Part shown: positions 41,000-59,500 of the stretch, piece after piece | How positions within the stretch are numbered: the stretch's first letter is position 1 | How the letters are laid out: every line of letters starts with the position of its first letter | DNA from: Ischnura elegans | Taxonomy: Eukaryota > Arthropoda > Insecta > Odonata > Coenagrionidae | Direction: 5' to 3' | Length of the DNA stretch: 64,000 bases | Assembly (NCBI RefSeq): GCF_921293095.1 | Contig: NC_060252.1 | Span: 7,998,001-8,062,000 of the forward strand | Made by a program: the position numbers and the translations under genes | Notes under the pieces: generated by a model | The model's input: the letters and a program-made list of their open reading frames with translations, nothing else | The model's database searches: none | What the model was told of the DNA's origin: nothing

Positions 41000-42000
41000 T
41001 ATTCATGAAAAAATCAATTACTAGAAAGTATAGTAAATCTAGCCAGAGTGATATCTACTACTACACCGTGTACTAATTTTCACCGTGAATCTAGTTGGTT
41101 AATATTTCACTACATTGTGTTCACTACACCACAATAAATATAACCTGGGTCCTAATTATTCTAAATGTCAATTGTTCCGTATGTTTAACTAAAGACTCCA
41201 GTTGAATTTCATCGGATTTACCATTACGAAGTGGTTTAGTGCCTACAATAGGCAGTGTCACTTCGGTAAATCTTTTGAACGAATGTTTACACATGGTTGC
41301 TACGAATAATTTATATTCTGGAAATAGACGAAAAATGGATAAATTTGTCACAAAAACCACAATCATCGGATGGAAGCGAATTGTACTAAAATACTTAAAG
41401 TGAGTAATCACTCGCAGAAATTCTTCTTTCGCTCAATGATACAAATTTCCAACCAATTACTTGAGAGTAAGCAGCTTAAATATAGGTAAAACAGCGCGAC
41501 AGGGTCAAAATATGTGCGATTGATGGAATATTGCATAGAAGTTGGAAGATTAACATTCCTGGGATGGAGAAAAATGAACAAAATTTTTTTCTCACAAATA
41601 AGCTGAGCTGGTTTGTGCTACGTATTGATGAGTGATTCAGATTTAGGTTAGACAGGACACCTTCTATTATATCAAATATGAATAATTCTACTGATTTTCT
41701 CTAAATTTTGAGCGTGTGATATTATTTTGCCACCTGCAAATTCTGCCGTGGGTACCCCGTCAATATTTTAATTTGTTTTTCTAATCTTATCCCAAATAGA
41801 AAAAACTGCTCCCCTAAAATTCGATCGAATTTGGCATTTTCATCCATGGTAGCGAAACAGTCCCCTTTCCTGACGGGAGAAAAAATGGGAGGCACATAAC
41901 AATGGACAGCAATTCTGGTTGACGACGCGAAAATAAACAAATAGGTGAGTGATGTAATAGAAATAGTGGCGATCGGGCATACGCGTCGTTGCTCCCGATT
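41000..42000. other. Unassigned DNA
   Basis: AT-rich with short open frames on the minus strand (41124-41411, 41722-41940) and no recognised motif. Confidence 0.35.
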
Positions 42001-43639
42001 TTGTCCTGAATACTTATATCAACTGCATTTCCAATTTGTGTGTAGATAATTAGTCCAGGAAATGAAGCATTTTGGCTTGCAATTTTTTCAAACTGAATTG
42101 ATTTTCCTGAAATTTTCACAATAAGTAGGGAATATACCAAGAATCAAAATCTATATCATGCCGACGGGCGCTTTTACCCTGGGGGTGGTTTCCACCCCAT
42201 CTCGGGGGTGGAAAATTTTAATTATATTTTGACCACAGGAATCGATAGGAAAGTAAATCCTAAGAATAAAATGTTCTATCCATTTTTCGTGTCAAATTAA
42301 TATTTTTCGAGTTATTTGCGATTGAAAGTAAAAGTTTTTTGACGAAAAAATCGATGATTTCAAACGGTTATAGGCAAATAACTTGAAAAGTATTAATTTT
42401 ATTAGGAAATTGCCAGTTACACAACTGTAGCTTGTAAGAAATTAAATAAAAATCTTATTTTGTACTTCCTTTACGACCAATTCTGACCGAACTAAAACTT
42501 GTTGATGGTTATCTTGTGTTTGTCATACGCTAAATTTGAAATATTCAATACCAAATAGCGGGAAAACTGTATTTTTTAGGAAAACTGTATTTTTTAGGAA
42601 AACTTATGCAATCTATTTAAAAGTATTTAAAGAAAACCTTCTTTAAATGAGAAAAAAAAATTTTTATCGTGAAATTTGAGCGAGTTTTGATTAAAAATTA
42701 GATCAGTCCCTACTTTTTTCTACGAAAAAATCAGTGAAAACAACTCCTTATTACCACACTAGTCAAAATTGATCAATTCCCTCCAGAGTTTATCTTTATT
42801 TAAGTATTGTTAATTGATTCTAGAAGTTTGTTAAATTTAAAATTCTAAATTTTGAAAAAATTCGAGGTAAGAGTGAAAAGCCATTTTCTACAATTTCGTT
42901 AAAAATGTTCTTTTTGTCAAAATAACTTCAAAAAAACTGGAGATATTAAAAAAATGCTAGAGTAATAAATTGTAGTTTCTTTGTTTTCAAATATTTTTGT
43001 GTGTTTTAATTTTCTGTACAAGAAATATTTGGTGAGATATTGATAATTAAAACATCTATTTACAAGGGAGCTCCACCTTATTTAAACCCTTAAATCCCTC
43101 CCCTTTCAAAATTAAGGGCTCGAAAAAAACTTTAATTCACATGACCTCGTAGTCAGTAAAAACCCAACAAAATAGTATTTAAATGAACTTTCTTTCATCA
43201 AAAATAAAGGAGCTATGTTTGAAATACCAATCAAATTTATTTTCGAAAAATTCGAAATCCACAATTCAGAGCATAACATTCCTCATAACCAGTATATACT
43301 TTGTGTGCTTTACGTTCGAAGCTAACGATACACTCAAATTTGCTACAAAATAAACACAAATACCCATAAGATGTATAAGTACATACACATATGTGAGTAT
43401 GTGTGCTGTCGCTCACATTGACCTGTGTGCAAGCATGTGGTGGGAAGACTGGAAGCCATACAGTCTCCGTTTCATGTAACGTCTACATAAATGTACATTT
43501 ATTTGTTTATGTTACCATGACGAAGTTTGTTCTGTTTATCCTATTGTTATATATTTTCTGTGCTGTGATCATCAGAGAATAAAGTGAATACATAATAAAA
43601 GTAGTAAGAAAGTGAATGAGAAGATACAATGTGATAAAT

Positions 43640-44245
43640 AATTTATATTTTTAGGGTAAATATTTTTTAACATTTACCCCCAATAAGGGCTGAAATATTC
43701 TAAAATTATTTTCAAAACATAAAAAAATTATACAAATAATTTAAACTACATTTTACCCGTATTTAGCTTTAAAATATAACTTTATAAGTTTTAGCTTTTA
43801 GGGGTAGTTTTCACCCCTAAAAAAAACTGCCCTTCGGTATAGTATAGATTTTGAAGAAGGGAGTATGATTAGTCTAATCCCAAATTTTTATGCAAATCGA
43901 TACGGTTTGAAAAAAAATTTTGAAGGGGGTATGATTAGTAAAATCACAATTTTTTATGCAAATCGATTCAGTGTGAAAATTCTTTTTTACAATTACCCAC
44001 ATTAAGGGTTGATTATTATGAGTTGAAACACCTTAAAGTTATTTTACAAACGTAAAAAAATAATTATACAAATAATTTAAACTACATTTTACCCGTATTT
44101 TGCTTTAAAATATAATTTTATAAGTTTTAGCTTTTAGGGGTAGTTTTCACCCCTAAAAAATAAAAAGCGCCCTTCGGCATAATATAGATTTTTAAGTAGG
44201 GGGTTTAATTAGTCCAATCCCAAATTTTTGCGCAAATCGATTCAG
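43640..44245 (+). repeat. ~300-bp tandem duplication
   Basis: Two units (about 43640-43925 and 43985-44245) share long blocks such as ATAATTTAAACTACATTTTA, GCTTTTAGGGGTAGTTTTC and GCAAATCGAT in the same order. Both include a G/C-tract hairpin AGGGGTAGTTTTCACCCCT. The second unit is interrupted by the element starting at 44246. Confidence 0.8.
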
Positions 44246-45058
44246 GGGCCGTATTCTGTATTTCGTCGGTGCCGCACCGGTCGGTTTCCCTTTCAAGCCC
44301 ACCGACTGGACATCAAACCGTACCGACAACGGATTCCGCACCGACGACGACACTTTCAGCGATTCTGTAAGGTCGTCGGTTTCAAACCAGTCGGTACGGT
44401 TCCCCTTCCTTCCCAAACAGGGAAAATCCGAATATATCCGAAGTTTGACGTGTCTCCACCAATGAAAGAAGGGTAAAAACAAGTGAAGACTCATTGGCAC
44501 AGTTTGTTGTCGTCATTCTCAATCTTTTTATTTGCGGAAATTACGACTTATTGCTAGATTAAGATAAACGATATTGGATAAGTTGTTGACAATGCTTATA
44601 TAATGTGTGGTAGTAATGCTGTACCTACAGAATCGAAGGAAACAATATTACAACATCACAATAAAGTTTGTATGTGATGGAGATTGTTGTTGCTGGAATG
44701 AATTATTGAAACTATCCTTGAGATCGTAGTTTCTTTTTTTAAATATTGGTTCCGTATAATGCTATTTATTCATGATTTGGTAATATAGTTGTCATTAAGT
44801 AAGTTCCGTATAAATGTTATCAACGGAATGTTATGCCATTGGCACCGTAGCAGACGAAAATAGCATACTATGGAACGTGAACGTAGGATTCAAATGCAAA
44901 TGTAATATTAGAGGAACAAGTTAGGAAATTGTTATAAAAATATGGAGCTGGGTGCAATTAAAAGAAGTGTAATGACCAGGATGTAAATAAATTGTGATTG
45001 GGTGAAATACATATGTATAAGTTGCGCATTCCAAGTGAGAGAAAATGATAATATTGCG

Positions 45059-45082
45059 AAAATTAATTGTTTGAGGCGTAAC
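45059..45082 (-). repeat. 24-bp inverted repeat flanking the minus Penelope copy, left
   Basis: These 24 bases (core TTGTTTGAGGCGTAAC) are the exact inverse of 46898-46921. They lie just outside the 3' end of the minus-strand Penelope copy, separated from it by about 19 bases. The partner lies at that copy's 5' junction, so the copy sits between the two arms. Confidence 0.85.
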
Positions 45083-45101
45083 TATGTGAAAGCGATTCAT
45101 A

Positions 45102-46897
45102 ATTAAATTAAGAAAGAAGAACTTTGTACTTTCACATTAATATTTAATCACGACCATGGTTTCAACGTTAGACGTCATCATCAGGTGAACTCTACAGAGG
45201 TCCATCACATCCTTTTATAACAGGCTAGGAGGGGGAGGGAGGAAGGTAATTAGGTTGAAAGGATTGGTTAACAGAGAAGAGGGAGGGGGGAAAAAAACCT
45301 TGGTCATGTGGTATGGAAGTTAGGGGGAGGAGGCACCCTTATGGGGGGCACGGCAAGTGGAGGGGGGGGGGGTTCAGGTGAGAGAGAGAGAGAGGCCGAA
45401 GAGTTCGTCATGTCATTAGCCCAGGAATTTAGGAGTGGGAGGCTTAAAAGAGGGGAATGGTAGTCATACAAAAATTCGTTTACAATGTTGTCATTGGAAC
45501 GTACGTGCTGCAAAATTTCCATTTGTTCCAAAGCGTCTAATCTAGGTCCTTTAGGTTCATAATGAAGCACTTCAAACACAAAATCACTTTGATGATTGTT
45601 ATCTAACAAATGTATAGCAAATTGTGAAGTAGTCTTTTTATTTCTCTGGCAGGCTTGATGTTCTTTTACCCGCTCTTGAAATTGTCGCCCCGTTTGCCCA
45701 ACATACACCGCGTTGCATTCACATTTTAGTCTATACACCCCACTCCTTTCTTCTCTTGGGATGTGATCTTTGGTGAGGGAAAGAATGTTCCTGAGGTTGG
45801 ATTTATTGTAAAACGCAACTTTAATTTTATCCTTGGGCACCTTTTTGTATATCTTCGGCCCAATGTCCTTTAAAAAAAAAAGGATTCTACGCCACTTGGC
45901 CGTGGATTCTTGTCGCGTTCGGGATCCATAAATTTCTCCCACTGCTTGTTTTTTTAATTGTTTCCGATATAAGCTATCAATTAACTGTTCGTTGTATCCG
46001 TTATTTTTAGCAATTAGTTTAATTGTGTTTAATTCCTCATTGAACTTGGCAGGGGACATCGGAATATGCAGCAACCTATGTAACATGCTGTGAAAGGCTG
46101 ATAACTTGTGGGAAAAACAATGTCTTGAACTGGAGTGGATCACTTGGTCCGTATAGGAGTTTTTCCGAAAGACTGAAAACTCGAGGTGATTGTTGACCTT
46201 AGTGACTTTAAGATCTAGGAAGTTGAGAGAGTTATTTTCTTCTATTTCGTAAGTGAAATTCAAATTGCGGTCCAAAGAATTCAAAAAAGATAGGAACATT
46301 TTTAGTTGTCTTATTGAGCCAGTCCAAATACAAAACACATCGTCCACATATCGATGCCAGGATAGCACATTTTTGGTCTGTGGATTATTGGGGGAAAACA
46401 GGTTCCTTTCGAAAAAGTCCATATATATGTCCGCCAGGAGAGGGGATAAAGGAGAGCCCATGGCCAATCCATTGGGCTGTTCATAAAATACACCGTTAAA
46501 TTTGAAATAATTTTGAGACACACAAATCTTCAATAGATCACACAAGTCACTTATAATGGGAGCTGCCACACGTTTCTGGACGAGAATAGATTCTGCTATG
46601 TCTACGGCTTCTTTGGGTGGGACACAGGTGAAGAGATTGCACACATCAAAAGACACTAACAAGCACTTATTGGGGATATCAATTTTAGAGACGTGTTGGA
46701 TGAAGTCAATGGCGTTAGTAACTCCATACTTAGGGGTAAACTTTGAGTGGTGTCTTAGTACACAGTTGAGTTTTTTCGCCAAGAGGTAGCTTGGAGCCAT
46801 GACGTTGGAAACAACGGGTCTAATTGGACAATCACTCTTGTGAATTTTAGGAAGCCCAAAAAAACGTGGAGCTGAGGGGTTCATTTGGTGTAACCTA
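45102..46897 (-). mobile_element. Penelope-like retroelement, minus copy, 5'-truncated
   Basis: This is the minus-strand member of a head-to-head pair. It matches the plus copy from about 47866 through the 3' tail (which continues at 55580-55648 beyond the Harbinger insertion) and is cut at its 5' end at TAGGTTACACC. Over the coding part the two copies encode the same residues until a C-run length difference near the end. Its tail contains the unoccupied Harbinger target site (GACGTCTAACGTTG on the minus strand, near 45160-45175). Confidence 0.92.
45304..46884 (-). CDS. Penelope-like RT/GIY-YIG protein, C-terminal 526 residues
   Basis: This is a truncated reading frame of the Penelope-like polyprotein. 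It retains the reverse transcriptase palm (SFDVCNLFTCVP, NGLAMGSPLSPLLAD, RYVDDVFCIW) and the GIY-YIG nuclease (GVYRLKCECNAVYVGQTGR). The N-terminal DKG-containing part is missing because the element is 5'-truncated, so it cannot be a normal full-length product. It equals the C-terminal part of the plus-strand protein except for the last residues, where an 11-base rather than 12-base C-run puts the tail in another frame. The ATG at 46882-46884 is an internal Met of the full protein, not a natural start. Confidence 0.85.
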   Translation of the reverse strand: MNPSAPRFFGLPKIHKSDCPIRPVVSNVMAPSYLLAKKLNCVLRHHSKFTPKYGVTNAIDFIQHVSKIDIPNKCLLVSFDVCNLFTCVPPKEAVDIAESILVQKRVAAPIISDLCDLLKICVSQNYFKFNGVFYEQPNGLAMGSPLSPLLADIYMDFFERNLFSPNNPQTKNVLSWHRYVDDVFCIWTGSIRQLKMFLSFLNSLDRNLNFTYEIEENNSLNFLDLKVTKVNNHLEFSVFRKNSYTDQVIHSSSRHCFSHKLSAFHSMLHRLLHIPMSPAKFNEELNTIKLIAKNNGYNEQLIDSLYRKQLKKQAVGEIYGSRTRQESTAKWRRILFFLKDIGPKIYKKVPKDKIKVAFYNKSNLRNILSLTKDHIPREERSGVYRLKCECNAVYVGQTGRQFQERVKEHQACQRNKKTTSQFAIHLLDNNHQSDFVFEVLHYEPKGPRLDALEQMEILQHVRSNDNIVNEFLYDYHSPLLSLPLLNSWANDMTNSSASLSLSPEPPPPPLAVPPIRVPPPPNFHTT

Positions 46898-46921
46898 GTT
46901 ACGCCTCAAACAATTAATTTT
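46898..46921 (+). repeat. 24-bp inverted repeat at the head-to-head junction
   Basis: The exact inverse of 45059-45082. It starts GTTACGCCTCAAACAATT and follows directly on the truncated 5' end of the minus copy. The junction GGTGTAACCTA/GTTACG has short microhomology (TAGGTTAC against TAGTTAC). Confidence 0.85.
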
Positions 46922-49435
46922 ATCAAGTGCGCTAGTAACGCAGTTAAGGCCAGCCTCTACAGGAGACTTTCCATAAAGTACCGGATCGCAGCCCTAAACA
47001 TCTATTTCAACAGCCAGTGCATCAACCACAACATCATCCCTAATTACATCAACCGCCAGTGGAAGGAACCCCGGTCTTCAGCGGGCTCCTTTGCAGTCAA
47101 CGCAGCCAAGAGGACTTGGCTCAAAAGGGAGTTACATGAGTGGTATGTGAAAAGAGACGCTATTTCCCATTACCTGTTTCTTCTATACGTGGAGCTCACT
47201 CGCGATCTTCACTGGATTGAGTGGTTGATTTTAGATGACTTAGTTCGCCAAAAAAGTAGTGAAATTGCCTTTGAAAAGAGAGCCACCATTCTGCGCAAGT
47301 TGGAGGCCCTTAAGACGAAGCAGACGTCTAGTACCAAACAAACCTTCGCGGATCAACCAGTGGTGGACGCCCATTCTTTCGGACCACGAATCGTAAATCT
47401 GTCTAAACACTCCTTTAAGCCAAATGAAGTGACCTTATTAGAAAAGGGCTTGAAATACGTGCCAAATATCCCCATTTCCGTGAAGGACGTTAAGAATTTA
47501 GCAGTGGATTGTGACATAGCTCTCCAGAAAGACAATATGCATGTGAAGCATTTCATTGCCCAGGAGTTAAATAGGTTTATAGTTCATGAATCAAAGGTGA
47601 AGAGACGATACCCAGAATTTGAAACTCTTAACTCGATTAAGTGTACTCTTAGGTCAGAACAGCTAGTTATTCAGAAAGCTGACAAGGGGAACGCAGTTGT
47701 GATTATGGATAAAGAAGATTACTTAGAGAAATGTGAACAGTTCATACGAGACAATGGGATCAAAGAATTGCCGACAGATCCGACTGCCAAGTTCCAAATA
47801 GAGTGCAAAAGAGCCTTAAAATCAGTTTCAGTGTTATTTAAGTGGAATGAAGTGAATAGGTTACACCAAATGAACCCCTCAGCTCCACGTTTTTTTGGGC
47901 TTCCTAAAATTCACAAGAGTGATTGTCCAATTAGACCCGTTGTTTCCAACGTCATGGCTCCAAGCTACCTCTTGGCGAAAAAACTCAACTGTGTACTAAG
48001 ACACCACTCAAAGTTTACCCCTAAGTATGGAGTTACTAACGCCATTGACTTCATCCAACACGTCTCTAAAATTGATATCCCCAATAAGTGCTTGTTAGTG
48101 TCTTTTGATGTGTGCAATCTCTTCACCTGTGTCCCACCCAAAGAAGCCGTAGACATAGCAGAATCTATTCTCGTCCAGAAACGTGTGGCAGCTCCCATTA
48201 TAAGTGACTTGTGTGATCTATTGAAGATTTGTGTGTCTCAAAATTATTTCAAATTTAACGGTGTATTTTATGAACAGCCCAATGGATTGGCCATGGGCTC
48301 TCCTTTATCCCCTCTCCTGGCGGACATATATATGGACTTTTTCGAAAGGAACCTGTTTTCCCCCAATAATCCACAGACCAAAAATGTGCTATCCTGGCAT
48401 CGATATGTGGACGATGTGTTTTGTATTTGGACTGGCTCAATAAGACAACTAAAAATGTTCCTATCTTTTTTGAATTCTTTGGACCGCAATTTGAATTTCA
48501 CTTACGAAATAGAAGAAAATAACTCTCTCAACTTCCTAGATCTTAAAGTCACTAAGGTCAACAATCACCTCGAGTTTTCAGTCTTTCGGAAAAACTCCTA
48601 TACGGACCAAGTGATCCACTCCAGTTCAAGACATTGTTTTTCCCACAAGTTATCAGCCTTTCACAGCATGTTACATAGGTTGCTGCATATTCCGATGTCC
48701 CCTGCCAAGTTCAATGAGGAATTAAACACAATTAAACTAATTGCTAAAAATAACGGATACAACGAACAGTTAATTGATAGCTTATATCGGAAACAATTAA
48801 AAAAACAAGCAGTGGGAGAAATTTATGGATCCCGAACGCGACAAGAATCCACGGCCAAGTGGCGTAGAATCCTTTTTTTTTTAAAGGACATTGGGCCGAA
48901 GATATACAAAAAGGTGCCCAAGGATAAAATTAAAGTTGCGTTTTACAATAAATCCAACCTCAGGAACATTCTTTCCCTCACCAAAGATCACATCCCAAGA
49001 GAAGAAAGGAGTGGGGTGTATAGACTAAAATGTGAATGCAACGCGGTGTATGTTGGGCAAACGGGGCGACAATTTCAAGAGCGGGTAAAAGAACATCAAG
49101 CCTGCCAGAGAAATAAAAAGACTACTTCACAATTTGCTATACATTTGTTAGATAACAATCATCAAAGTGATTTTGTGTTTGAAGTGCTTCATTATGAACC
49201 TAAAGGACCTAGATTAGACGCTTTGGAACAAATGGAAATTTTGCAGCACGTACGTTCCAATGACAACATTGTAAACGAATTTTTGTATGACTACCATTCC
49301 CCTCTTTTAAGCCTCCCACTCCTAAATTCCTGGGCTAATGACATGACGAACTCTTCGGCCTCTCTCTCTCTCTCACCTGAACCCCCCCCCCCCTCCACTT
49401 GCCGTGCCCCCCATAAGGGTGCCTCCTCCCCCTAA
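46898..49435 (+). CDS. Penelope-like retroelement protein: reverse transcriptase plus GIY-YIG endonuclease
   Basis: This protein would nick target DNA and copy the element RNA there. From the GTG at 47147 it is 762 residues. In that numbering, the N-terminal DKG motif of Penelope-type RTs is at 179-181, motif A Asp at 321 (SFDVCNLFTCVP), motif B NGLAMGSPLSPLLAD near 378-392, and the catalytic YVDD at 420-423. The GIY-YIG nuclease starts GVY at 623-625 with YVGQTGR at 635-641. The frame is open upstream to 46844 without an ATG. Residues from 46922 (YRRLSIKYRIAALNIYFNSQ, then NIIPNYINRQWK) look like genuine N-terminal Penelope sequence, so the true start is upstream of 47147 and either non-ATG or lost at the junction. 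There are no internal stops or frameshifts. The element's tail is broken by the Harbinger insertion 150 bases after the stop. Confidence 0.93.
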   Translation, partial: VTPQTINFIKCASNAVKASLYRRLSIKYRIAALNIYFNSQCINHNIIPNYINRQWKEPRSSAGSFAVNAAKRTWLKRELHEWYVKRDAISHYLFLLYVELTRDLHWIEWLILDDLVRQKSSEIAFEKRATILRKLEALKTKQTSSTKQTFADQPVVDAHSFGPRIVNLSKHSFKPNEVTLLEKGLKYVPNIPISVKDVKNLAVDCDIALQKDNMHVKHFIAQELNRFIVHESKVKRRYPEFETLNSIKCTLRSEQLVIQKADKGNAVVIMDKEDYLEKCEQFIRDNGIKELPTDPTAKFQIECKRALKSVSVLFKWNEVNRLHQMNPSAPRFFGLPKIHKSDCPIRPVVSNVMAPSYLLAKKLNCVLRHHSKFTPKYGVTNAIDFIQHVSKIDIPNKCLLVSFDVCNLFTCVPPKEAVDIAESILVQKRVAAPIISDLCDLLKICVSQNYFKFNGVFYEQPNGLAMGSPLSPLLADIYMDFFERNLFSPNNPQTKNVLSWHRYVDDVFCIWTGSIRQLKMFLSFLNSLDRNLNFTYEIEENNSLNFLDLKVTKVNNHLEFSVFRKNSYTDQVIHSSSRHCFSHKLSAFHSMLHRLLHIPMSPAKFNEELNTIKLIAKNNGYNEQLIDSLYRKQLKKQAVGEIYGSRTRQESTAKWRRILFFLKDIGPKIYKKVPKDKIKVAFYNKSNLRNILSLTKDHIPREERSGVYRLKCECNAVYVGQTGRQFQERVKEHQACQRNKKTTSQFAIHLLDNNHQSDFVFEVLHYEPKGPRLDALEQMEILQHVRSNDNIVNEFLYDYHSPLLSLPLLNSWANDMTNSSASLSLSPEPPPPSTCRAPHKGASSP

Positions 49436-49587
49436 CTTCCATACCACATGACCAAGGTTTTTTTCCCCCCTCCCTCTTCTCTGTTAACCAATCCTTTCAA
49501 CCTAATTACCTTCCTCCCTCCCCCTCCTAGCCTGTTATAAAAGGATGTGATGGACCTCTGTAGAGTTCACCTGATGATGACGTCTAA

Positions 49588-49616
49588 AGGCTGGGACACA
49601 ATCAACGCTAACGTGA
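49588..49616 (+). repeat. Left terminal inverted repeat of the Harbinger element
   Basis: AGGCTGGGACACAATCAACG and the following nine bases are the exact inverse of 55551-55579. They are bordered outside by TAA. Confidence 0.95.
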
Positions 49617-50400
49617 GACGCGAGCCGTTAACGGGAGTCGGTAAAAAGATGGCGGAAGGGAAAGCTTATGGAAGGGACACAACCACCGTTTACGGGGAGT
49701 ACGTAAACGCGAGAGATGGGCAACTTTCATCTCTTCCCGTGTCCCGTACACGGAAAGCCAATCAGAAGAGCCGGAGGAACCCGAAAATGGGAGCCACCTG
49801 TTGGCAGAGAAAGGTATCTACGGCATCACACAGCGATACAGCATTTTTGGCGCCCATTGCTGAATATACCAGTTGTTGTTGTCGTGCAACGTGAGCTGAA
49901 GAGGATTCATTTAAGGTAAGCCATTAATTAATTTAATTTACATGCATACTATCGTCCCCCTCTCGGCAATTATTTACTGAAGAAAATATTAATTCTTTCG
50001 AGATGCTATCTTCCCATGGTGATGTGCCAAACACTCTTAAATTCATCGGCTAAACACATAATTTTAACGCATATCTGGTAGTACTGACGTACGCTAAGTT
50101 TTCATTGTTTTCAGCCCGTAATTAACAGTTTTTACGTTCGAAAATCAAAATTCCTTTCGTTGAGTTTTTTTTTTAGTACATCATTTTGAGTTCCTGTTTG
50201 GCTATTTACAAAATGACGCGTTGATAATGTACTTTTAATGTAATAGCACTTGGATGCTGTTTAATACAACATTTCTTCACAGCTACTTCCTAATGTGTTT
50301 TGCGAGTTTCATGTGAAGTGAGGTTGAAATTTAGTGTATTTATGGATAAAATGGAATTAATGTATCGAAATTTTGCACTACATCCATTTTTATATTTCAG
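49617..50400 (+). promoter_or_regulatory. Leader and promoter region of the MADF-BESS gene
   Basis: This is non-coding left subterminal DNA. A donor AAG/GTAAGC at 49915-49916 and an acceptor TATATTTCAG ending at 50400, directly before the ATG, suggest a 5' untranslated exon and an intron of about 485 bases. The upstream GC-rich 49620-49900 stretch contains open frames that do not splice in phase with the coding exon, so I do not read them as protein. No TATA box is clear. Confidence 0.5.
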
Positions 50401-53152
50401 ATGGAGAATGACGAGTTACTAATTGATCTGGTAAAAAACTACCCGGTGTTGTATGACCGGAGCAGAAAGGAATTCCGGGACACTTCCCTGAAAGACAGGG
50501 TGTGGGCTTCCATAGGTGAAGTCTTGAAAGCAAGTGGTAAGTTAATTTTTGTTTTACTTCTTGGCAGTTTTTCATTTCACTGGAGGATTTTTACCATTGG
50601 AGTCAATGGTCGATTCGCTATCTTTCTTGTAAACAAAAAAACGGATCATTGGTCCTTTTGGGTCGTATAGTTGTTACACGTCCTAGATTTCTCAAATAGC
50701 TGTAATACAGATATATTGAATTGGTAACAATTATCAGCAAAACTTAAATACTTATACATGCTTTGTGTCATAAATGTGTTCGTAGCATAAATAACTTGAA
50801 GCAAATATACCCTAGAATGCATATATGTTTTTTTATCATCACCATGCTCTTTAAGAAGTTAAGAAATGGGCTCAATAGCAAGTGTAAGACTAACAAACAT
50901 TTACAAGTGGGTGTTGATTATATAGCTTATGACGTAGGAAATGACTATCCTTCTCTGACAGTTGTGGTGAGAATGTAGTGACTACATTCTCACCACAACT
51001 AAACATTTGAAGAGAGATCTCATCATTAAATGTTGTCATCAACTGCATCAGGCATGCAAATATGTAGGTTATATTTAGCAAGACTGTGTGATCATCTTCA
51101 TCCTTCCAGCATATTAGCTATCTCATACCCCAATGTGTGACTTTTGTCCCTCCCTTGTCATGAAAATTTCCAAGTCTTTTTGACTTTTTTTCGTCCTGAA
51201 CTTGTATTAATGTGATCTAGTGCAATAAGATTTCGTCGAGTGCTCATCGCATGGTATACAAGCATGAAAATCCTGAAAAAACCTGCTTTACTAGGTACCT
51301 CTGAATGTGTGAATTCTTTTGGTAGATAAATAAAAATAATCAAGTCTGTTGCATGTCAGAGTACTTATTGAGATAGTTGAGCAGGATTTCAGCATATCTC
51401 TCAATGTGATCAAACATCATTGCTGTAGTCAGGAGATGATGTTTTGTTTGGAAATAGAGTGCAACCGACGGATTAAATTTGAATATCTTGAAAACAAACT
51501 ACTGCTATTAAATAATTATACTCCTTTAAGCACTAAGAATTATAAAATCTCCATCTCTGTCCAACAACTAAAACAAAATTCATGGGTCTGATCATTGAAG
51601 ACTGGAACTTGGTCTTTATATGTCAACAATCTATCTGTAAAATTATATGTGGTCCTGTATGGACTAAGGTTTTTAAGAAACTTTCTATCCCATGGGGTAC
51701 TTATGACCTTGTTTAATTTTAACTTCCTGAGTATAGTCAATTATGCCATATATTCTGGGGATCAGCAGTTACTTTCCTAAGCCAAGAGTTTCTCCGGCAG
51801 AAGAGGGCATTAAGAGCAATCATGGGTAAATGAAGAAGATAAGATGCATGTTGACCACTGTTTGTTGAGCTGGAACTTCTCATAGTACCATGCCTATACA
51901 TATTTTTATTGTGTATGTTAACACAGCTCAACCTCCATAGGCTCAGGACAAATCAGGAGATATTCATCAGATATTCATGATAACTTAACCAAGTCACATT
52001 AATATGTGCACGTGACCCTATTATGATGCTATGTACATTTTGGAAATATATATTTTGGTTGCCTAACTTCAATGGCATGTTCTGTATCCATGTTTTGTGG
52101 CACTCTGTAACATGATCTTCTGGATAAAAAATATGATAATTATATTAACCACAATGCAAGGCATTTTCGACCAATTTTACTAGATCTTGAATATTCTAGA
52201 GGGGTTTGATGTTCATTAATTTACTGGAAACTAAATACTCTTCATGTTCTCTTTCCTGGTCCTTTTAATCTAATCAAATCATGCATATCTCTTACAGGTC
52301 AGGATTGCTCTTCACGTTGGGGGACCCTTCGTGATCGCTTTGTCCGCGAGTTAAAGGCGGATTCTAGTGGATTACCCTCTGGCTCTGGTGCAATGCCAAG
52401 AAGGGGATGGCCACTTAAGGAGGCAATGATGTGGTTGCAGCCATTTATCAGGGCTCGGAAGTGAGTGTAATTTAGTAATCTATGACAAATGCCTGTTGTT
52501 ACTGTATTATAATGAATTATGACAAATCATGAATCACATAGCGATATGAGAGCATTATCTATGTCATTTGCTTCAACTTTGCAGGACCTTTGGCAACTGC
52601 AGGGACCCTATTAACTCCCCTCTGCTCACTCTTTCTGATTCCCCAGAACTACCACCTTCTCCTAAACCCTCTTTACCTCTTTCTTCACCCACTTCATTCG
52701 AGCTTACAGAATCTTCTAGTCCCTCATCTGCTTCCTTAACCATCCCTGTCTCCGCACCATCACCTGATACTATTTCAATTGGCTCCCCTTCCCCTGAACA
52801 TACACCTCAGTCTTTTTCTCCCTCCCCCGATACCTTTAGTTTGAGGAAAAGGAAGCAGGGAGCTGACTTGGAGACTGCACTTGTCAGCAGCCTCTCAGGA
52901 TTTTCTAAGTACCTCTCCGAGAAGAAGGCGAAAAAGGATGAGGAAGACGAGAATGACTTGTTTTGCCGTAGCCTTTTGAGCAATTTAAGAAGGCTTTCGA
53001 GCAAGCAGCAGAATCAGGCTAAAAGAAAACTTCTGGAAGTTAGAAAAGTTAGTCTGAGAAAACATTCACATTATTATTTTCAAATGGATACAATGTACCT
53101 TGCTGTGTTAACATTCATCTGTAAAATGAAACGAAAAGCAATGCTACACTAG
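50401..53152 (+). CDS. MADF-BESS DNA-binding protein of the Harbinger transposon
   Basis: Three exons: 50401-50536, 52298-52460 and 52585-53152, giving 288 residues. All introns have GT-AG ends (GTAAGT and GTGAGT donors; CTTACAG and TTTGCAG acceptors), and phases fit. Residues 1-100 form a MADF (Myb/SANT-like) domain: ELLIDLVKNYPVLYDRS, then WASIGEVLK, RWGTLRDRFVRELK, and WPLKEAMMWLQPFI. Residues 101-190 are Ser/Pro-rich. A Lys/Glu-rich segment and a BESS motif (DLFCRSLLSNLRRLSSKQQ) follow near 224-252. Harbinger elements need a Myb-like partner that helps import the transposase and bind the ends; in insects this is often a MADF protein, so the role is inferred from family and position. The last 33 codons and the stop lie inside the first unit of the 164-bp repeat array, so the C-terminus may be a recent extension. 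Confidence 0.9.
50537..52297 (+). other. Long first intron of the MADF-BESS gene
   Basis: The 1761-bp AT-rich intron is unusually long for a transposon gene. It has no recognisable open frame and contains a perfect 20-bp-arm palindrome at 50960-51000. Confidence 0.8.
50960..51000. repeat. Perfect palindrome, 20-bp arms with one-base centre
   Basis: AGTTGTGGTGAGAATGTAGT at 50960-50979 is exactly inverted at 50981-51000 around a single G. It lies in intron 1 of the MADF-BESS gene and would form a tight hairpin in RNA or a cruciform in DNA. Confidence 0.95.
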
Positions 53153-53838
53153 AAAAATTAACCACTGCCTCATAATAGTCAACATAGTAAAATAAATGCA
53201 GGGGATAGTGGGCCACAGTGAGAAAACATTCACATTATTATTTTCAAATGGATACAATGTACCTTGCTGTGTTAACGTTCATCTGTAAAATGAAACGAAA
53301 AGCAATGCTACACTAGAAAAATTAACCACTGCCTCATAATAGTCAACATAGTAAAATAAATGCAGGGGATAGTGGGCCACAGTGAGAAAACATTCACATT
53401 ATTATTTTCAAATGGATACAATGTACCTTGCTGTGTTAACATTCATCTGTAAAATGAAACGAAAAGCAATGCTACACTAGAAAAATTAACCACTGCCTCA
53501 TAATAGTCAACATAGTAAAATAAATGCAGGGGATAGTGGGCCACAGTGAGAAAACATTCACATTATTATTTTCAAATGGATACAATGTACCTTGCTGTGT
53601 TAACATTCATCTATAAAATGAAACGATAAGCAATGCTACACTAGAAAAATTAACCACTGCCTCATAATAGTGAACATAGTAAAATAAATGCAGGGGATAG
53701 TGGGCCACAGTGAGAAAACATTCACATTATTATTTTCCAGTTGATACAATGTACCTTCCTCTGCTACCCTAAATCTAGAACATAAAACGAAAAGCATTGG
53801 CAAACTTGAAAAATCTCATTGTGGCCCACTCTACCCTA
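53054..53838. repeat. 164-bp tandem repeat array (4 units plus a diverged partial)
   Basis: Units start at about 53054, 53217, 53381, 53545 and 53709, the last diverged after about 40 bases. The period is 164. Units 1 to 4 differ by only a few bases. The first unit overlaps the 3' coding end and stop codon of the MADF-BESS gene. Every full unit carries an AATAAA word, so the array supplies several possible polyadenylation signals between the two convergent genes. Confidence 0.95.
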
Positions 53839-53931
53839 CATTTCTTTGACTATGTTGCCTATTTTGAGGCAGAATAAAATAGAAAGTAACTATGATGTGG
53901 GATATGTGGATACATAACATTTTCTACTATA

Positions 53932-55391
53932 TCAGTTTATGCTGGTTACCTTGTGATATTGCCAAGGTACCTCTCCCTCCCTTGTAATGAAATAATTAGC
54001 CAGCATGTCCCTGAGTTCATATGCCACCCTGGTGGCTATATTGGCCCCTAATCTCCCAACACCTCTCAATGCTGCCATCTCCAGTCGCCAGTTTCCCTCA
54101 TTCACCACACCATTATTTTCGGAATCAACATAATTTGGGGGACAATAAAATCTTGAGCCACAAGTTTCACTTTTGATAAAGTTATGAAGGCACACACAAG
54201 CTGACACATATGCCTCCACAGTGTCAGGCTGTGCAACCATAACACTTCTAAGAATTCTCCACCTCGAAGCTAAAATGCCAAAGGCATTTTCTATCGTTCT
54301 CCTGCCCCGAGAGAGCCTGTAGTTGAAAATTGATTTTTGCAGGCTCAGGCTCCTTCCAGGATATGGCCTCATCAACCACTTCCGTTGAGGAAAGGCAGCA
54401 TCTCCCACAAGGTAATATGGCATCTCCTGGGCCATACCTGGAATTACCTCAGGAGGAGGGAAAACAATGTCACCTGTTTCCACAGCTCTACCGATAACCC
54501 TTGAAAATATTCCTCCATCACTTTGGGAACCTGAAATTAACAAATATATTTCAATACCACTGCGGGTGAATGTTGATGATACGGCAACAGGGTCATCTTT
54601 ATAACATTTGGTTCGATCTGAGAAATTACTAACCATATGCTCCAATATCAATGAGCGTGAAGTTGTATTCAGCATCACAGGCAGCCATCAACACTATGCT
54701 ATGCGTTTTTTTATAATTAAAAAATAAACTTCCAGCATTGCTGGGTGCCTGTATGGCAATATGCTTGCCGTCAATAGCACCAACGCAATTGGGGAGGTTC
54801 CATTTTGAATGAAAGCCGTCTGCAATGCGTCGCCAGTCTTCCTCCTGAGGTCTCTTCAAATACTTTGGAGAGAGAGCTCTCCAAATGGCTTGGCATGTCT
54901 CCTTCAGCACCTTTTGTGCAGTCGACTTAGCCACGTAGTACTCCCACCCCAGTGCACTTGTGCTACCTCCATGTGCCAAGTATCTGTCAATGTTAAAATT
55001 AACACGGTATAAATATAAACATCACAATTATAGGTACGAGAAGACTGCCACGTAATAACGCAAATACTTACTTAAGAGTCATCGCCAGTCTCTGACCAAC
55101 GGAAAGAGCTTTCCTCTGGCTTCTTTTCTTGAGCAACGGAGTCAAGAGTTTCACTAATGTGTCGAATTGCCTTCGACTCATCCTTGTGTATTTAAAAAAC
55201 TCCTCCTCGTCCATGGTCCGCATAGCCGCGAAAATGTTGGAATATGCCCCTCGTTGCTCCCGATCTTGATTAATCGGCCTAACCCACCACCTCCTGTTGT
55301 ACCACCGTTTTCTTCTTTTGTACAGCATGTACCCTGATGTCATTAACATGATACCAAGGTACATGGCCGTATCCTCGTCAATTTCGAACAT
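53932..55391 (-). CDS. PIF/Harbinger DDE transposase
   Basis: Three exons on the minus strand: 55391-55072, 54983-54634 and 54530-53932, giving 422 residues. The introns are 88 and 103 bases with GTAAGT/GACAG and GTTAGT/TTCAG borders and consistent phases. The catalytic core is a DDE_Tnp_4 fold. First Asp is 178 (CVGAIDGKHIAIQAP), second Asp 267 (YYLVGDAAFP) and Glu 304 (GRRTIENAFGILASRWRIL). DIGAYGSQSDGGIF is rebuilt across the second splice. The N-terminus (MSRRQFDTLVKLLTPLL) matches the helical region of the family. It would cut and rejoin the element ends in the nucleus with help from the MADF-BESS protein. All catalytic residues are present and there is no stop or frameshift. The ATG is 189 bases inside the right terminus, leaving little room for a promoter outside the inverted repeat. 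Confidence 0.95.
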
Positions 55392-55550
55392 TCTTCAAAA
55401 ACTCTTCCTACACACAAACGAAAAGACTGAAGACCACAAACAAAACCACTGCGCGGGCGTTAGTCAATTTTCTTTCCGGCCACGGGAACGTCAATTGTGA
55501 CCGCTCAGTGGCGTTCCCCGTCTCACGTTCTCCCGGTTCCCGTAACCGTT

Positions 55551-55579
55551 TCACGTTAGCGTTGATTGTGTCCCAGCCT
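55551..55579 (-). repeat. Right terminal inverted repeat of the Harbinger element
   Basis: The exact inverse of 49588-49616, followed by TAA at 55580-55582. Subterminal words ACGGGAAC and GTCTCACGTTCTCCC nearby echo those of the left end. Confidence 0.95.
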
Positions 55580-55648
55580 TAACGTTGAAACCATGGTCGT
55601 GATTAAATATTAATGTGAAAGTACAAAGTTCTTCTTTCTTAATTTAAT
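55580..55648 (+). mobile_element. Penelope plus copy, 3' tail remnant
   Basis: The continuation of the plus-strand Penelope tail after the Harbinger insertion (TAACGTTGAAACCATGGTCG to CTTAATTTAAT). It matches 45102-45170 of the minus copy base for base as far as I can follow. Beyond 55648 the native element DNA resumes. Confidence 0.9.
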
Positions 55649-56155
55649 GATAATATTGCGGTAAACCTCATACTTATTAACAAATATCTTCTTTTATCGT
55701 CAAGGGAATCAATGGCTGACGATGAAATGAAATATAGTTGCCCGTTACAAATGAAAGAAACTGATACCGTTGTGGCAAACTTCATACTTAAATAAAAAGA
55801 TCTTATTTATATGCCGAGAGAAACGCCAAATTGATGATTGAGTGAAATAACAGTCGCCTATTCAGAGTGATATAAAGTGATAACATTGCGGCAAAACTCA
55901 TATTTAATCAAAAATATCTTTTTTATGTCAAAGGAGCAAATAATGATGATAGAGAGAAATAAAGCCTATTACAAGCGAGTGAAAGTGCGGTAACATAAAT
56001 GAGAGAAAGTCATTATATGTTAGCAAACCTCATTTTTATTAACCATTATCTTATATTTCTGTCAAGGTAATTAATATAGATGATGACACAGTGAATTATA
56101 GAGGCGTATTCGAAGGGGCAGAAAAAGATAACATTGGAGAAAACCTCATTATTTA
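55649..56155 (+). repeat. Degenerate ~115-bp tandem repeats in the GGGCC element
   Basis: About five diverged units begin with GATAATATTGCGGTAAACCTCA-like text at 55649, 55762, 55878, about 56010 and 56128. A further unit start (GATAATATTGCG) is seen on the other side of the Penelope pair at 45047. The Penelope pair therefore inserted inside this repeat array. Confidence 0.75.
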
Positions 56156-56559
56156 CTCGGTGATGAGGTAAAAACAAAATAAAACGTACAATGCGCACCG
56201 ATACCGTCATACGCACCGATGGGGAATTCATGAAACCCACCAGTCGGTGTCCGTACCGACACCTCTTTGCTGTCGGTACGGCTACCGACGATCTCCCGTC
56301 CTCTCGTCGGTGCCCCACCGACCGGGTTCGTACAGAATCGCACGACTTCTTACCGGGAGTCGGTGTGACGTCGCACCCGACGAATCGGTGCCGCACCGAT
56401 CGGTTTGGAGTTACAGAATACGGCCCCAGTTTGAAAAAATTGCAAGGTTTTGCACTTTTATGAGCTTCATTTCCTGGACTAAATTTGATTTGTGAAGTAA
56501 TGATGTGTGGCGTTGCTCCAGATTTTTCTTCGTGAGTATCCAGGACAATTGCGTTTGCA

Positions 56560-59500
56560 ATTTGTGCTAATTTTATTTGTGTAACAAAGGAAAGCGTTTT
56601 AGAAGATTTTCATTAATGCCGATGATAGCTCAACTCCTGCCAAATACCGCTACAAGATGGCTGGACCGATATTGTTCTTACGTCGTGGACTGCGACCGCG
56701 GCGAGTAATTCCTTCCCCCAACCTCCGTGTCCCCTGACCCTAGAACATTATCATAATAGCATTGTAGTACGTAGCTGTGGCTAGAAGCTTTGTCGTCTTT
56801 TAAAAGATCATGAAAAAACCATTCTTTTATTATTTCACCACAGTTTGCCACGATACTTATGTCATTATAAACTTCATTTTAACGTAATAAGGGGCGGCCG
56901 CCGCCAACTATAAGCCGTCATTGAAAAATTTCGAGCCAGCAAGGTTCACTGTAATTTTTGAATATACGATTATTTCAGTAACCATGACTCGCATATATCT
57001 GATACGTGGAAGAAAGATCTATTCCTAATAGTTTTGAGGACACAAATAGTTTATGCAACTTAATTTAAAGGAGCTGCTGTAAACAAGGCAAACCCCTGGC
57101 AACGCAGTTTAAACTAGTGTCTCAACTGAAAGAGCATTGGGAATGGTCATTTAGAATTTGGTAGAAATGTTCACCGCTGAAGTTAGAATCGTGAAATTAA
57201 ACAGTCTGCTGTTTGAGGATGTGGTTAGTTTAGGATATAGTTTTATGTGTCGTGAAACTGGATAAATAATGCTCTAATTATGTACTATATTCACTCCTTC
57301 GTTTCATAGCTCCATCAAAAATTCTATTATGATAATTGGAAGTAACGCATTGATTGTTCCTTGGAAAGAAAAATACGTCGAGAAGCATTTTCTTCTTCGT
57401 TACATGAGCATGGTAAAAAATAATATTACCTGTTCCCTGCCGATACATTTTACCAATTCTCATCAACAAACCAAAAGAAATCTCTCGTTATACGAGATAT
57501 TGTCAGCATTGGATATCCAAAATAATTAGCGCAAATATTATGCCGATGCTATATACATGAAGAATCATATTTCTCCTTTAAACTTCGAGTTTGCCACGTA
57601 CGAAATTAAAAATCAGGGCCGTGGAATCATTTGAGATTTCATCCACGCGAAGACGATCAACACAATCACAGCTTTCATTCCATATCATAATTAACATCTT
57701 TCGAAATGCTTTGAAGGAAATGTTTATATATAATCCATCAATAAAATGTAAATAATTGACTTTTCCCCATTTTGAGGTCCTCATTCATCGTATTTCAATC
57801 ATTGTAACACTTGCACAAGGTAAAACTCTGAATCTCAGCTCCTAGCGAAAGTTTACAGCCATTTAAGACATTACAGCCATCTGGAAAAATCAACATCGAT
57901 TATTTATTACTATCTGCCATTTATTGTCACTTATCACTAAAATAAACGAAAACGAGAGTAAAGCCGTCACCGCATACGCATTAAAGTTCAAGGAAAAATC
58001 TATTTACATCGCTAACATCCGGGGTTTTCAAAGAGGAACATCGAATGACCCAGAGAACCGGTTCTATGACTTGGATTGATCCGATTCAAAGATCCGAGTC
58101 GAAACAGAACTTCCCCGCTTCAGTTGAGCAACGACCTCTGTGTGAGGGAGTAGGAACGCGCAGCGGAAGATAGTGGGTGGGAAGGAGAATACAACATCCG
58201 CCGCAGCGATTTCAATGAAGTAAGACGGCGAAGAAGGCTTAGAAATATTTCCTCTTCTTCCCCGCCACGTTCACCTTTGTACTACGTAAAATAATACTAT
58301 GAGACGGGGTGTCAGATAGAAATTCTCTTGCACCTTAACGCAATATACAGGTTAAATTATTTTCATAACACTGCGTACTATTGATTTATTCTTTGTCATT
58401 TTATGATCAAATTATTGAAATAAAGCACGCTAATTCCACACCAGCAGCGAGCAATATTTACTCAACGACCATAATCAACAAGTTAATTTAACTTTCTCTT
58501 GCTAAATTACGTCAACTTGAAATTATCATCTATAATGATGTTATACAAGTTCGAATGTCAAGCAGTAATCAGAATCGAAAAGAGGTAATAACGATGGAAC
58601 GAAAATCGATGATTTTTTCTCCCATTAGCCAAGGTAATCCGTTCGAAAATAACACATCGATGTTATAAATAAAGAGAAAGAGTTATCTTGATGACCACTT
58701 AAAATATTTCTACACTATTTTGTGGAGTATGTGTCCTTTTCTTTCCAATTTCTGGTTTATATGCTATTTGCTTCAATTTGTTTTTCATTTGATTTTCTTG
58801 CATATTTTAGCACTCTTAAGTTATTGTGCGCGACTATTTATTACGACTAATATTATTACATTCAGTAGCCCATACTTGGGACATTTTTAATGTTCAAAAA
58901 TAGATAGAAATACTGTAGAAATTAACCACAAACTTTAAATGTTAACGAAAACTTTGAAGAGGCCCTGCACTTGAAAAAAAAACTCGGAAGATCCCCTGAA
59001 AATAAGGAATTGTTGACCCACCGTTCATTTTTTTGTTTTTTTGCGTTGTCCCAAATGAGGAATCTCCCCCCTATTACTTGGGACACCTTTGTTCTCCAAT
59101 GCCTTTACCGCGCTAAAATTAAAACACTCTTGGGACATATTAGTAGGCTTTTATATACATTTAACAGTGATAAACCTTGCCTGAAAAAAACACACGAGTT
59201 TAAGAATAAATCTAATAAGTCAACAATATTGTTTGGAGACAGTATGACTACGCAACAATAAGAACCACTCTGGGCGCTCACACTGTTTACATCATGGTGC
59301 CAACCTGAAAAAGTAAAAAGTCCCCTTTTTCACCCAAGTTAGATCCCTGTCCCTAGTACTGGCAGCAAGACTTTTTTTTTATTTTTAAGTTAAGTTTATT
59401 CAACCCTTGACAATCGAAAAAAAGTTAGAAAACGTTGGCCCTATAGAAGCACACCTTAACGCTGAAAAACTGTCGTATTCTCCTGAATAAGCTCTTTCAT

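Follow-up and report, generated by a model that had tools for sequence, protein, structure and literature searches.

Younger transposable elements lying inside older ones are common in large genomes. PIF/Harbinger transposons duplicate a 3-bp TWA target, and Penelope-like elements (PLEs) are kin of telomerase. According to the accessible part of a 2024 biochemical paper, the PLE protein of Anolis, a predicted dimer, cuts both strands of the target and extends them, reverse transcription begins at two neighbouring sites separated by a distance that matches the tail, and the later steps of insertion are "yet to be validated" (PMC11167929). The accessible part of a second paper describes a tail that is optionally present at one of the inverted pseudo-long terminal repeats (pLTRs), and proposes self-priming with an antisense template (PMC3846280). 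The NuwaI group of the PHIS superfamily is described, in the accessible sections of PMC4482050, as having CWG duplications and terminal inverted repeats (TIRs) of 12–61 bp whose ends usually start with GGG; the same sections call the target site duplications (TSDs) of the PIF/Harbinger group AT-rich. Here we describe a 64,000-nucleotide stretch of contig NC_060252.1 from Ischnura elegans (hereafter the window, which is without any N), in which five repeats, one of them a PLE, lie one within another, and a regularity of that PLE family, namely that each of 26 head-to-head pairs of PLE arms with both ends seen has exactly one tailed end.

We numbered the five repeats from old to young, by nesting, as layers 0, 1, 2, 3 and 4. 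The locus very probably arose by successive insertions, layer 0 being split by layer 1, layer 1 by layer 2, layer 2 by layer 3, and layer 3 by layer 4. An old dispersed repeat of ~300 bp would have been split by a 2.25-kb inverted-repeat DNA element (AAT duplication), this element by a 1.58-kb NuwaI-like non-autonomous element (CAG duplication), and the latter by one PLE insertion (15-bp duplication); last, an autonomous-looking PIF/Harbinger transposon (TAA duplication) would have entered a hammerhead-like motif of the PLE forward copy. Each DNA element would presumably have arrived by cut-and-paste with its own transposase. A preliminary description of this DNA had recognized four nested transposons in a readable order; it was confirmed that the nest is real and its order correctly read, but the number is five, an older layer 0 having been missed. 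Its statement that every level splits the next outer one was likewise borne out, each inserted layer having its own target duplication (AAT, CAG, 15 bp and TAA) and related copies running across the insertion points. The boundaries and the duplications were observed directly, as were solo copies or uninterrupted sites in the case of layers 0 to 2. Coordinates are given in the table.

Table. Coordinates of the nested layers and of their parts in the window.
Feature	Position	Strand	Remarks
Layer 0, left part	41861-42050 (about)		joined flanks align through the join in 3/4 fetched copies; left part 76–84% elsewhere
Layer 0, right part	56482-56599 (about)		first 3 bases are the AAT duplication; 71–83% matches starting at this point
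Layer 1, inverted-repeat DNA element	42051-56481		TIR TAGTCCAGGAAATGAAGC; ~2.25 kb without inserts; TSD AAT 42048-42050 and 56482-56484; 12 solo copies
Layer 2, NuwaI-like non-autonomous element	44246-56426		TIR GGGCCGTATTCTGTA; 1579 bp without insert; TSD CAG 44243-44245 and 56427-56429
Layer 3, one PLE insertion of two head-to-head arms	45059-55645		TSD AATGATAATATTGCG (15 bp) 45044-45058 and 55646-55660
PLE tailed arm, 5'-truncated	45059-46897	-	includes the reverse transcriptase portion of the reading frame (frame at 45304-46905)
PLE forward copy, untailed, main part	46898-49587	+	resumes at 55583-55645 beyond Harbinger
PLE reading frame	46898-49435	+	reverse transcriptase and GIY-YIG endonuclease; first few codons missing (by eye)
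Hammerhead-like motif, tailed arm	45148-45188	-	own descriptor scan
Layer 4, PIF/Harbinger	49588-55579		5992 bp; TSD TAA 49585-49587 and 55580-55582
Harbinger transposase gene region, in pieces (putative exons)	53932-55394	-	DDE_Tnp_4 in 53935-54687 and 54632-55021
Harbinger Myb/SANT-like (MADF-BESS) gene region (putative exons)	50401-53152	+	MADF 50401-50667 and 52300-52461; BESS 52550-53149

The preliminary description had proposed solo copies and empty sites of each layer as a check, and a search of the genome (1.72 Gb, 110 contigs) supplied solo copies or continuous sites for layers 0, 1 and 2. Copies elsewhere were continuous across the layer-1 point in 3/4 cases, across the layer-2 point in 8/12 solo outer elements, and across the PLE point in all seven solo CAG elements. 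Divergence followed the same order as nesting, at roughly 16–29% for layer 0, 6.8% for layer 1 and 0.84% for layer 2. The proposed comparison of divergence ages thus agrees with the nesting for layers 0, 1 and 2, and gave no order for layers 3 and 4. In these youngest layers, the PLE arms are without substitution away from the TSD boundary, and Harbinger has three private substitutions in 3375 columns (four copies compared). Both are therefore too young to be ordered by divergence, and nesting alone orders them.

Layer 0 was recognized from its flanks, which match elsewhere in the genome, among the matches listed, at the identities given in the table. When joined, they gave a straight alignment through the join at 73–77% in three of the four fetched copies; the fourth (L010) has both flanks with an extra stretch between them, and at C9:34051948 the left-flank and right-flank matches meet. 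This repeat carries direct sub-repeats of its own, present in other copies as well, so the inverted repeat that the preliminary description had placed at 42001-42100 and 56427-56553 appeared longer than it really is. We rejected these limits, since genome copies end at ~42050 and 56482: among 39 other genome matches listed, the left match starts at 42041-42051, mostly 42048-42051, and same-family matches stop on the right at 56481-56497. Also rejected was a long TSD formed by the direct repeat 41987-42041 and 56511-56566, which lies within layer 0, where such sub-repeats occur in other copies too.

Layer 1 proper has 12 solo copies that carry its inverted end with few mismatches, as read by eye. 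The 3-bp TSD is perfect in ten of them and in the window (AAT); L034 and L044 fail, again by eye. At the layer-2 point, the copies outside the eight continuous ones are L042, which continues past the point but with different sequence following, and L036, L038 and L039, which lack a stretch there in the alignment. Relative to a consensus of 13 copies, the one in the window has 151 differences in 2229 bases and the solo copies diverge by 1.7–6.5%, figures that are rough because the copies were picked as best matches to the window.

The CAG element, layer 2, had been placed exactly in the preliminary description. Its ends are a perfect inverted repeat of 15 bases (16 counting one CAG-side base), with CAG on both sides. 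The 15-base end word occurs in the genome 796 times forward and 797 times reverse, compared with 0 and 1 for a reversed-letter control, and among the first 100 places listed many form plus/minus pairs ~1.55 kb apart. Seven solo copies (L045–L051) measure 1552–1576 bp, close to the window copy without its insert, and CAG or CTG (CWG) stands on both sides in all eight fetched copies (L052 included) and in the window. The window copy departs from the consensus of eight at 13 of 1556 bases. The TIR starts with GGG and its length lies between 12 and 61 bp, and by these sequence features layer 2 would fit as a non-autonomous member of the NuwaI group. L052 (354-5587), a 5.2-kb copy with layer-2 ends and a CTG duplication, has an interior of repeated similar short frames and no long one; with no frame above 148 aa, it was rejected as an autonomous partner.

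Layer 3 is a PLE by its content, as reverse transcriptase and GIY-YIG lie in one frame (RVT_1, 33.6 bits; GIY-YIG, 28.6 bits; both over the curated cut-offs), and inverted partial copies, a tail and a target duplication are all present. No solved structure related to the PLE protein was found at E up to 0.01. The preliminary description had an inverted Penelope pair at 45059-55648; the limits were right within three bases, but the "pair" is a single insertion, as one direct repeat encloses the whole. Over 1798 columns, its two arms differ by a single mismatch (at the TSD boundary), besides one gap within a run of C. A tail, corresponding to roughly the first 42 bases of the reading frame with the start codon assigned by eye, closes the left arm; the right end has no tail and stops close to that codon, and the forward copy holds 959 nt of 5' sequence absent from the left arm. 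Neither arm can therefore be a plain copy of the other. At least 12 further full or nearly full genome matches are 99–100% identical to the forward copy.

The 41-nt hammerhead-like motif of the tailed arm was the only hit of our descriptor in the window and had no hit in 20 shuffles, the descriptor having been written after the motif was seen and the shuffles preserving base composition only. Rfam gave no hammerhead at gathering score in the window, nor did it return any relevant match within 45040-45400 at E up to 5. The forward-copy counterpart (49567-49587 and 55583-55602) is split by Harbinger, whose target TAA lies within the motif; both the coordinates and the duplication of this transposon had been given correctly in the preliminary description.

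That the nest is an assembly artefact, with repeats wrongly joined, is very improbable. Every layer is repetitive, which would favour such an error, and the nest is known from assembled sequence. However, proper target duplications are present at the junctions, and related copies at other loci run on over the insertion points; neither is expected of a chimera. Besides the reliance on the assembly, several points weigh against successive insertions as we describe them: no transposase turned up for layer 1, although no search aimed at one was made; none was found for layer 2 among the inspected frames of L052; divergence gives no order for layers 3 and 4; and no allelic Harbinger-free PLE region was seen, the opposite PLE arm and further PLE copies being the sole sources for the empty target. 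The nest provides a clean internal clock, as it places four insertions into an older repeat in order of age without recourse to a molecular rate.

We examined the arrangement of tailed and untailed ends in the PLE family across the genome. In a first sample, 40 of 859 candidates were scored, giving 69 matches. The resulting table held 16 head-to-head neighbours (window included) and no tail-to-tail neighbours among the matches listed; fetched ends added two short-arm pairs (C9:9630 and C2:1440), for a total of 18, and 13 further loci of the match table lie outside this sample. Eight PLE insertions had no inverted arm in the stretch fetched (one lies next to N), three of them tailed and five untailed. 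The outer ends of 17 of these 18 pairs fall at unit positions 2791–2801 on one side (tail) and 2751–2763 on the other (untailed); C6:8131 was scored as tailed on its last 10 tail bases alone, after an internal deletion. The one-tail rule was read on the first 13 pairs, window included, and then held in the next five. All 18 pairs share repeats of 9–15 bp in their outer flanks, compared with 18 of 306 cross-pairings that reach at least 9 bp; at least 11 bp was reached by 17/18 pairs and 2/306 cross-pairings.

A second sample was obtained by searching with pLTR plus tail (40 of 1783 candidates scored, 43 matches); chosen by tailed arms, it tests only whether the partner is untailed. Two new pairs, C6:5437 and C12:6910, were seen directly, each with one tailed and one untailed match. 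Eight of 17 further tailed loci were fetched, and seven proved to be head-to-head pairs and one a single insertion (L138). The partner's outer end was visible in six of the seven, and all were untailed (2754–2762); the remaining pair, L141, enters the count of inner ends below and not the count of tails. In total, exactly one end is tailed in 26/26 head-to-head pairs with both ends seen. Under independent ends, the chance of this pattern is at most 0.5 to the power 26, and 0.004 for the eight pairs of the second sample. We did not find the regularity stated as a rule in the PLE literature searched, nor a paper devoted to it, with subscription papers and early Penelope reviews mostly outside the search, and it may already be in print. 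A literature search for twin priming in PLEs returned no paper.

We then compared the inner ends of the arms, reading junctions of the first sample against a PLE reference without the tail and outer ends against a reference with it. In 11 of 25 pairs (18 from the first sample, seven from the second), the arms stop no more than 42 nt apart on the element map; the others stop at least 194 nt apart. Permuting partners gave 1.6 close pairs on average, and none of 200,000 permutations reached 11 (first 18 pairs, P = 7.5e-5; later seven, P = 0.006). These unit coordinates ignore whole extra units, which are present in six pairs (C9:9630 has one, on one side only), and when extra-unit and complex pairs were removed from the first sample, 4/11 were close (P = 0.00026). 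Of the 11 close pairs, eight have the longer reach in the untailed arm and two in the tailed arm (C4:5032 and C7:1163), and one is equal (sign test, P = 0.11); of the 14 distant pairs, ten have it in the tailed arm and four in the untailed. Most junctions contain 0–8 filler bases, with 21 in C4:1461 and 38 in L142; five have overlaps of 1–6 bases, and C10:8767 is complex. Outside the window, G000:C7:116306513-116312463 is a nearly symmetric head-to-head PLE array with a full and a partial copy on each side, whose inner ends lie 1 nt apart in a G/C run with five filler bases.

These data are consistent with two complementary DNAs (cDNAs), each primed on a different strand of the target and each with its own start site. 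Both target strands would prime reverse transcription; synthesis of one cDNA would begin at the tail site and that of the other ~40 nt upstream, and the 5'-truncated ends of the two would then be joined. The Anolis in vitro study, which reports that start sites do not differ between the strands (PMC11167929), weighs against this reading. The inverted pair of the window could alternatively be two separate insertions or a later rearrangement rather than one event. With 859 candidates at first count, PLE copies are numerous, and chance neighbours are possible. However, one 15-bp duplication encloses the window pair, the head-to-head layout with an enclosing 9–15-bp repeat recurs in 18/18 pairs, and head-to-head neighbours numbered 16 with no tail-to-tail neighbour among the matches listed, so that we give this alternative hardly any credence. 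Unlikely, though less remote, is a snap-back in which one cDNA folds back and copies itself into the second arm, a course put forward in PMC3846280 on the basis of palindromic junctions, there with an antisense template. Inner ends within 42 nt could come from short hairpin loops, and the overlaps at five junctions would suit it as well. Against it, plain copying would not add a tail that is absent from the template, and exactly one tailed end in every pair speaks against either arm being a plain copy of the other; in 8/11 close pairs the would-be template, which reaches further 5', is the untailed arm (one of the eight is L141, whose partner outer end was not seen), and most junctions have filler and no overlap. 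For the window pair, the tail and the extra 5' sequence led us to reject a plain snap-back. A mixed course may also apply, with the tailed cDNA primed on its own and a snap-back strand then annealing to it.

If priming took place on both strands of the target, the two cDNAs possibly derive from a single RNA, as the near-coincidence of their inner ends favours. Tentatively, and as a possibility that we do not hold to be probable, this PLE may integrate by two reverse transcriptases that follow each other along one RNA. One target strand would prime the leader, which would start at about the start codon and yield the untailed arm; the other strand would prime the follower, which would start ~40 nt downstream and yield the tailed arm. 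With the leader at the end of the RNA, the follower would stop slightly behind it (11–42 nt in the eight fitting cases), and a head-to-head junction would form between the cDNA ends, often including a few filler bases. Where the inner ends lie far apart, as in 14 pairs, one enzyme would have stopped early. Such an arrangement would explain the one-tail rule and the excess of close inner ends; it would also account for the further reach of the untailed arm in close pairs, which is only suggestive. Three observations weigh against two enzymes in tandem: the tailed arm reaches further in most distant pairs, which the model does not predict; C4:5032 and C7:1163 run the opposite way; and the Anolis in vitro study reports that start sites do not differ between strands (PMC11167929). 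The 26 insertions with one tailed and one untailed end form a sharp rule for a PLE mechanism to satisfy; sequenced genomes and the in vitro system already available both allow it to be checked.

The youngest layer encodes a DDE transposase and a second protein with a Myb/SANT domain, with DDE_Tnp_4 and MADF scores over curated cut-offs; no family matched in the piece 55071-55394. Its TSD is TAA in the window and in L067 and TTA on both sides in L069 and L070, with TAA and TTA in L071. Copies L063–L065 are 99.7–99.8% identical over ~3.4 kb; L063 and L064 could be seen at one end, where the flank is a different one, and neither end of L065 was visible. Between the two genes (53055-53814) lies a 164-bp unit repeated 4.6 times, and as L063 and L064 appear to have more units despite their 99.7% identity, the copy number seems to change fast. 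A perfect 20-bp palindrome with a 1-bp spacer (50960-51000) is present in six other copies at 95–98%. The first 369 bp of the element (49588-49956) are common to many short derivatives resembling miniature inverted-repeat transposable elements (L070 and L071, ~0.5 kb).

The element kinds that can be named at this locus are already known, and nesting itself is ordinary. As in other large genomes, younger elements have inserted into older ones; here, four successive insertions are of differing kinds, with a duplication at each. Layer 4 resembles PIF/Harbinger transposons in its TAA duplication, DDE_Tnp_4 transposase and separate Myb/SANT-like gene, and apart from the 164-bp tandem repeat between its two genes is ordinary. 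Layer 2 shares with the NuwaI group, as described in the accessible sections of PMC4482050, the CWG duplication and the short TIR starting with GGG, but differs in being non-autonomous, without a transposase found. The PLE is closest to elements with inverted pLTRs and a tail, namely Pen2a of Adineta vaga (PMC3846280) and PAc of Anolis (PMC11167929). As far as the accessible parts of these papers describe them, they share with it a frame holding reverse transcriptase and GIY-YIG, the inverted head-to-head layout, a single TSD around the whole and a tail at one end. In contrast to both, the inverted arm in this family is often a long 5'-truncated copy, and the tail stands at exactly one end in all 26 pairs.

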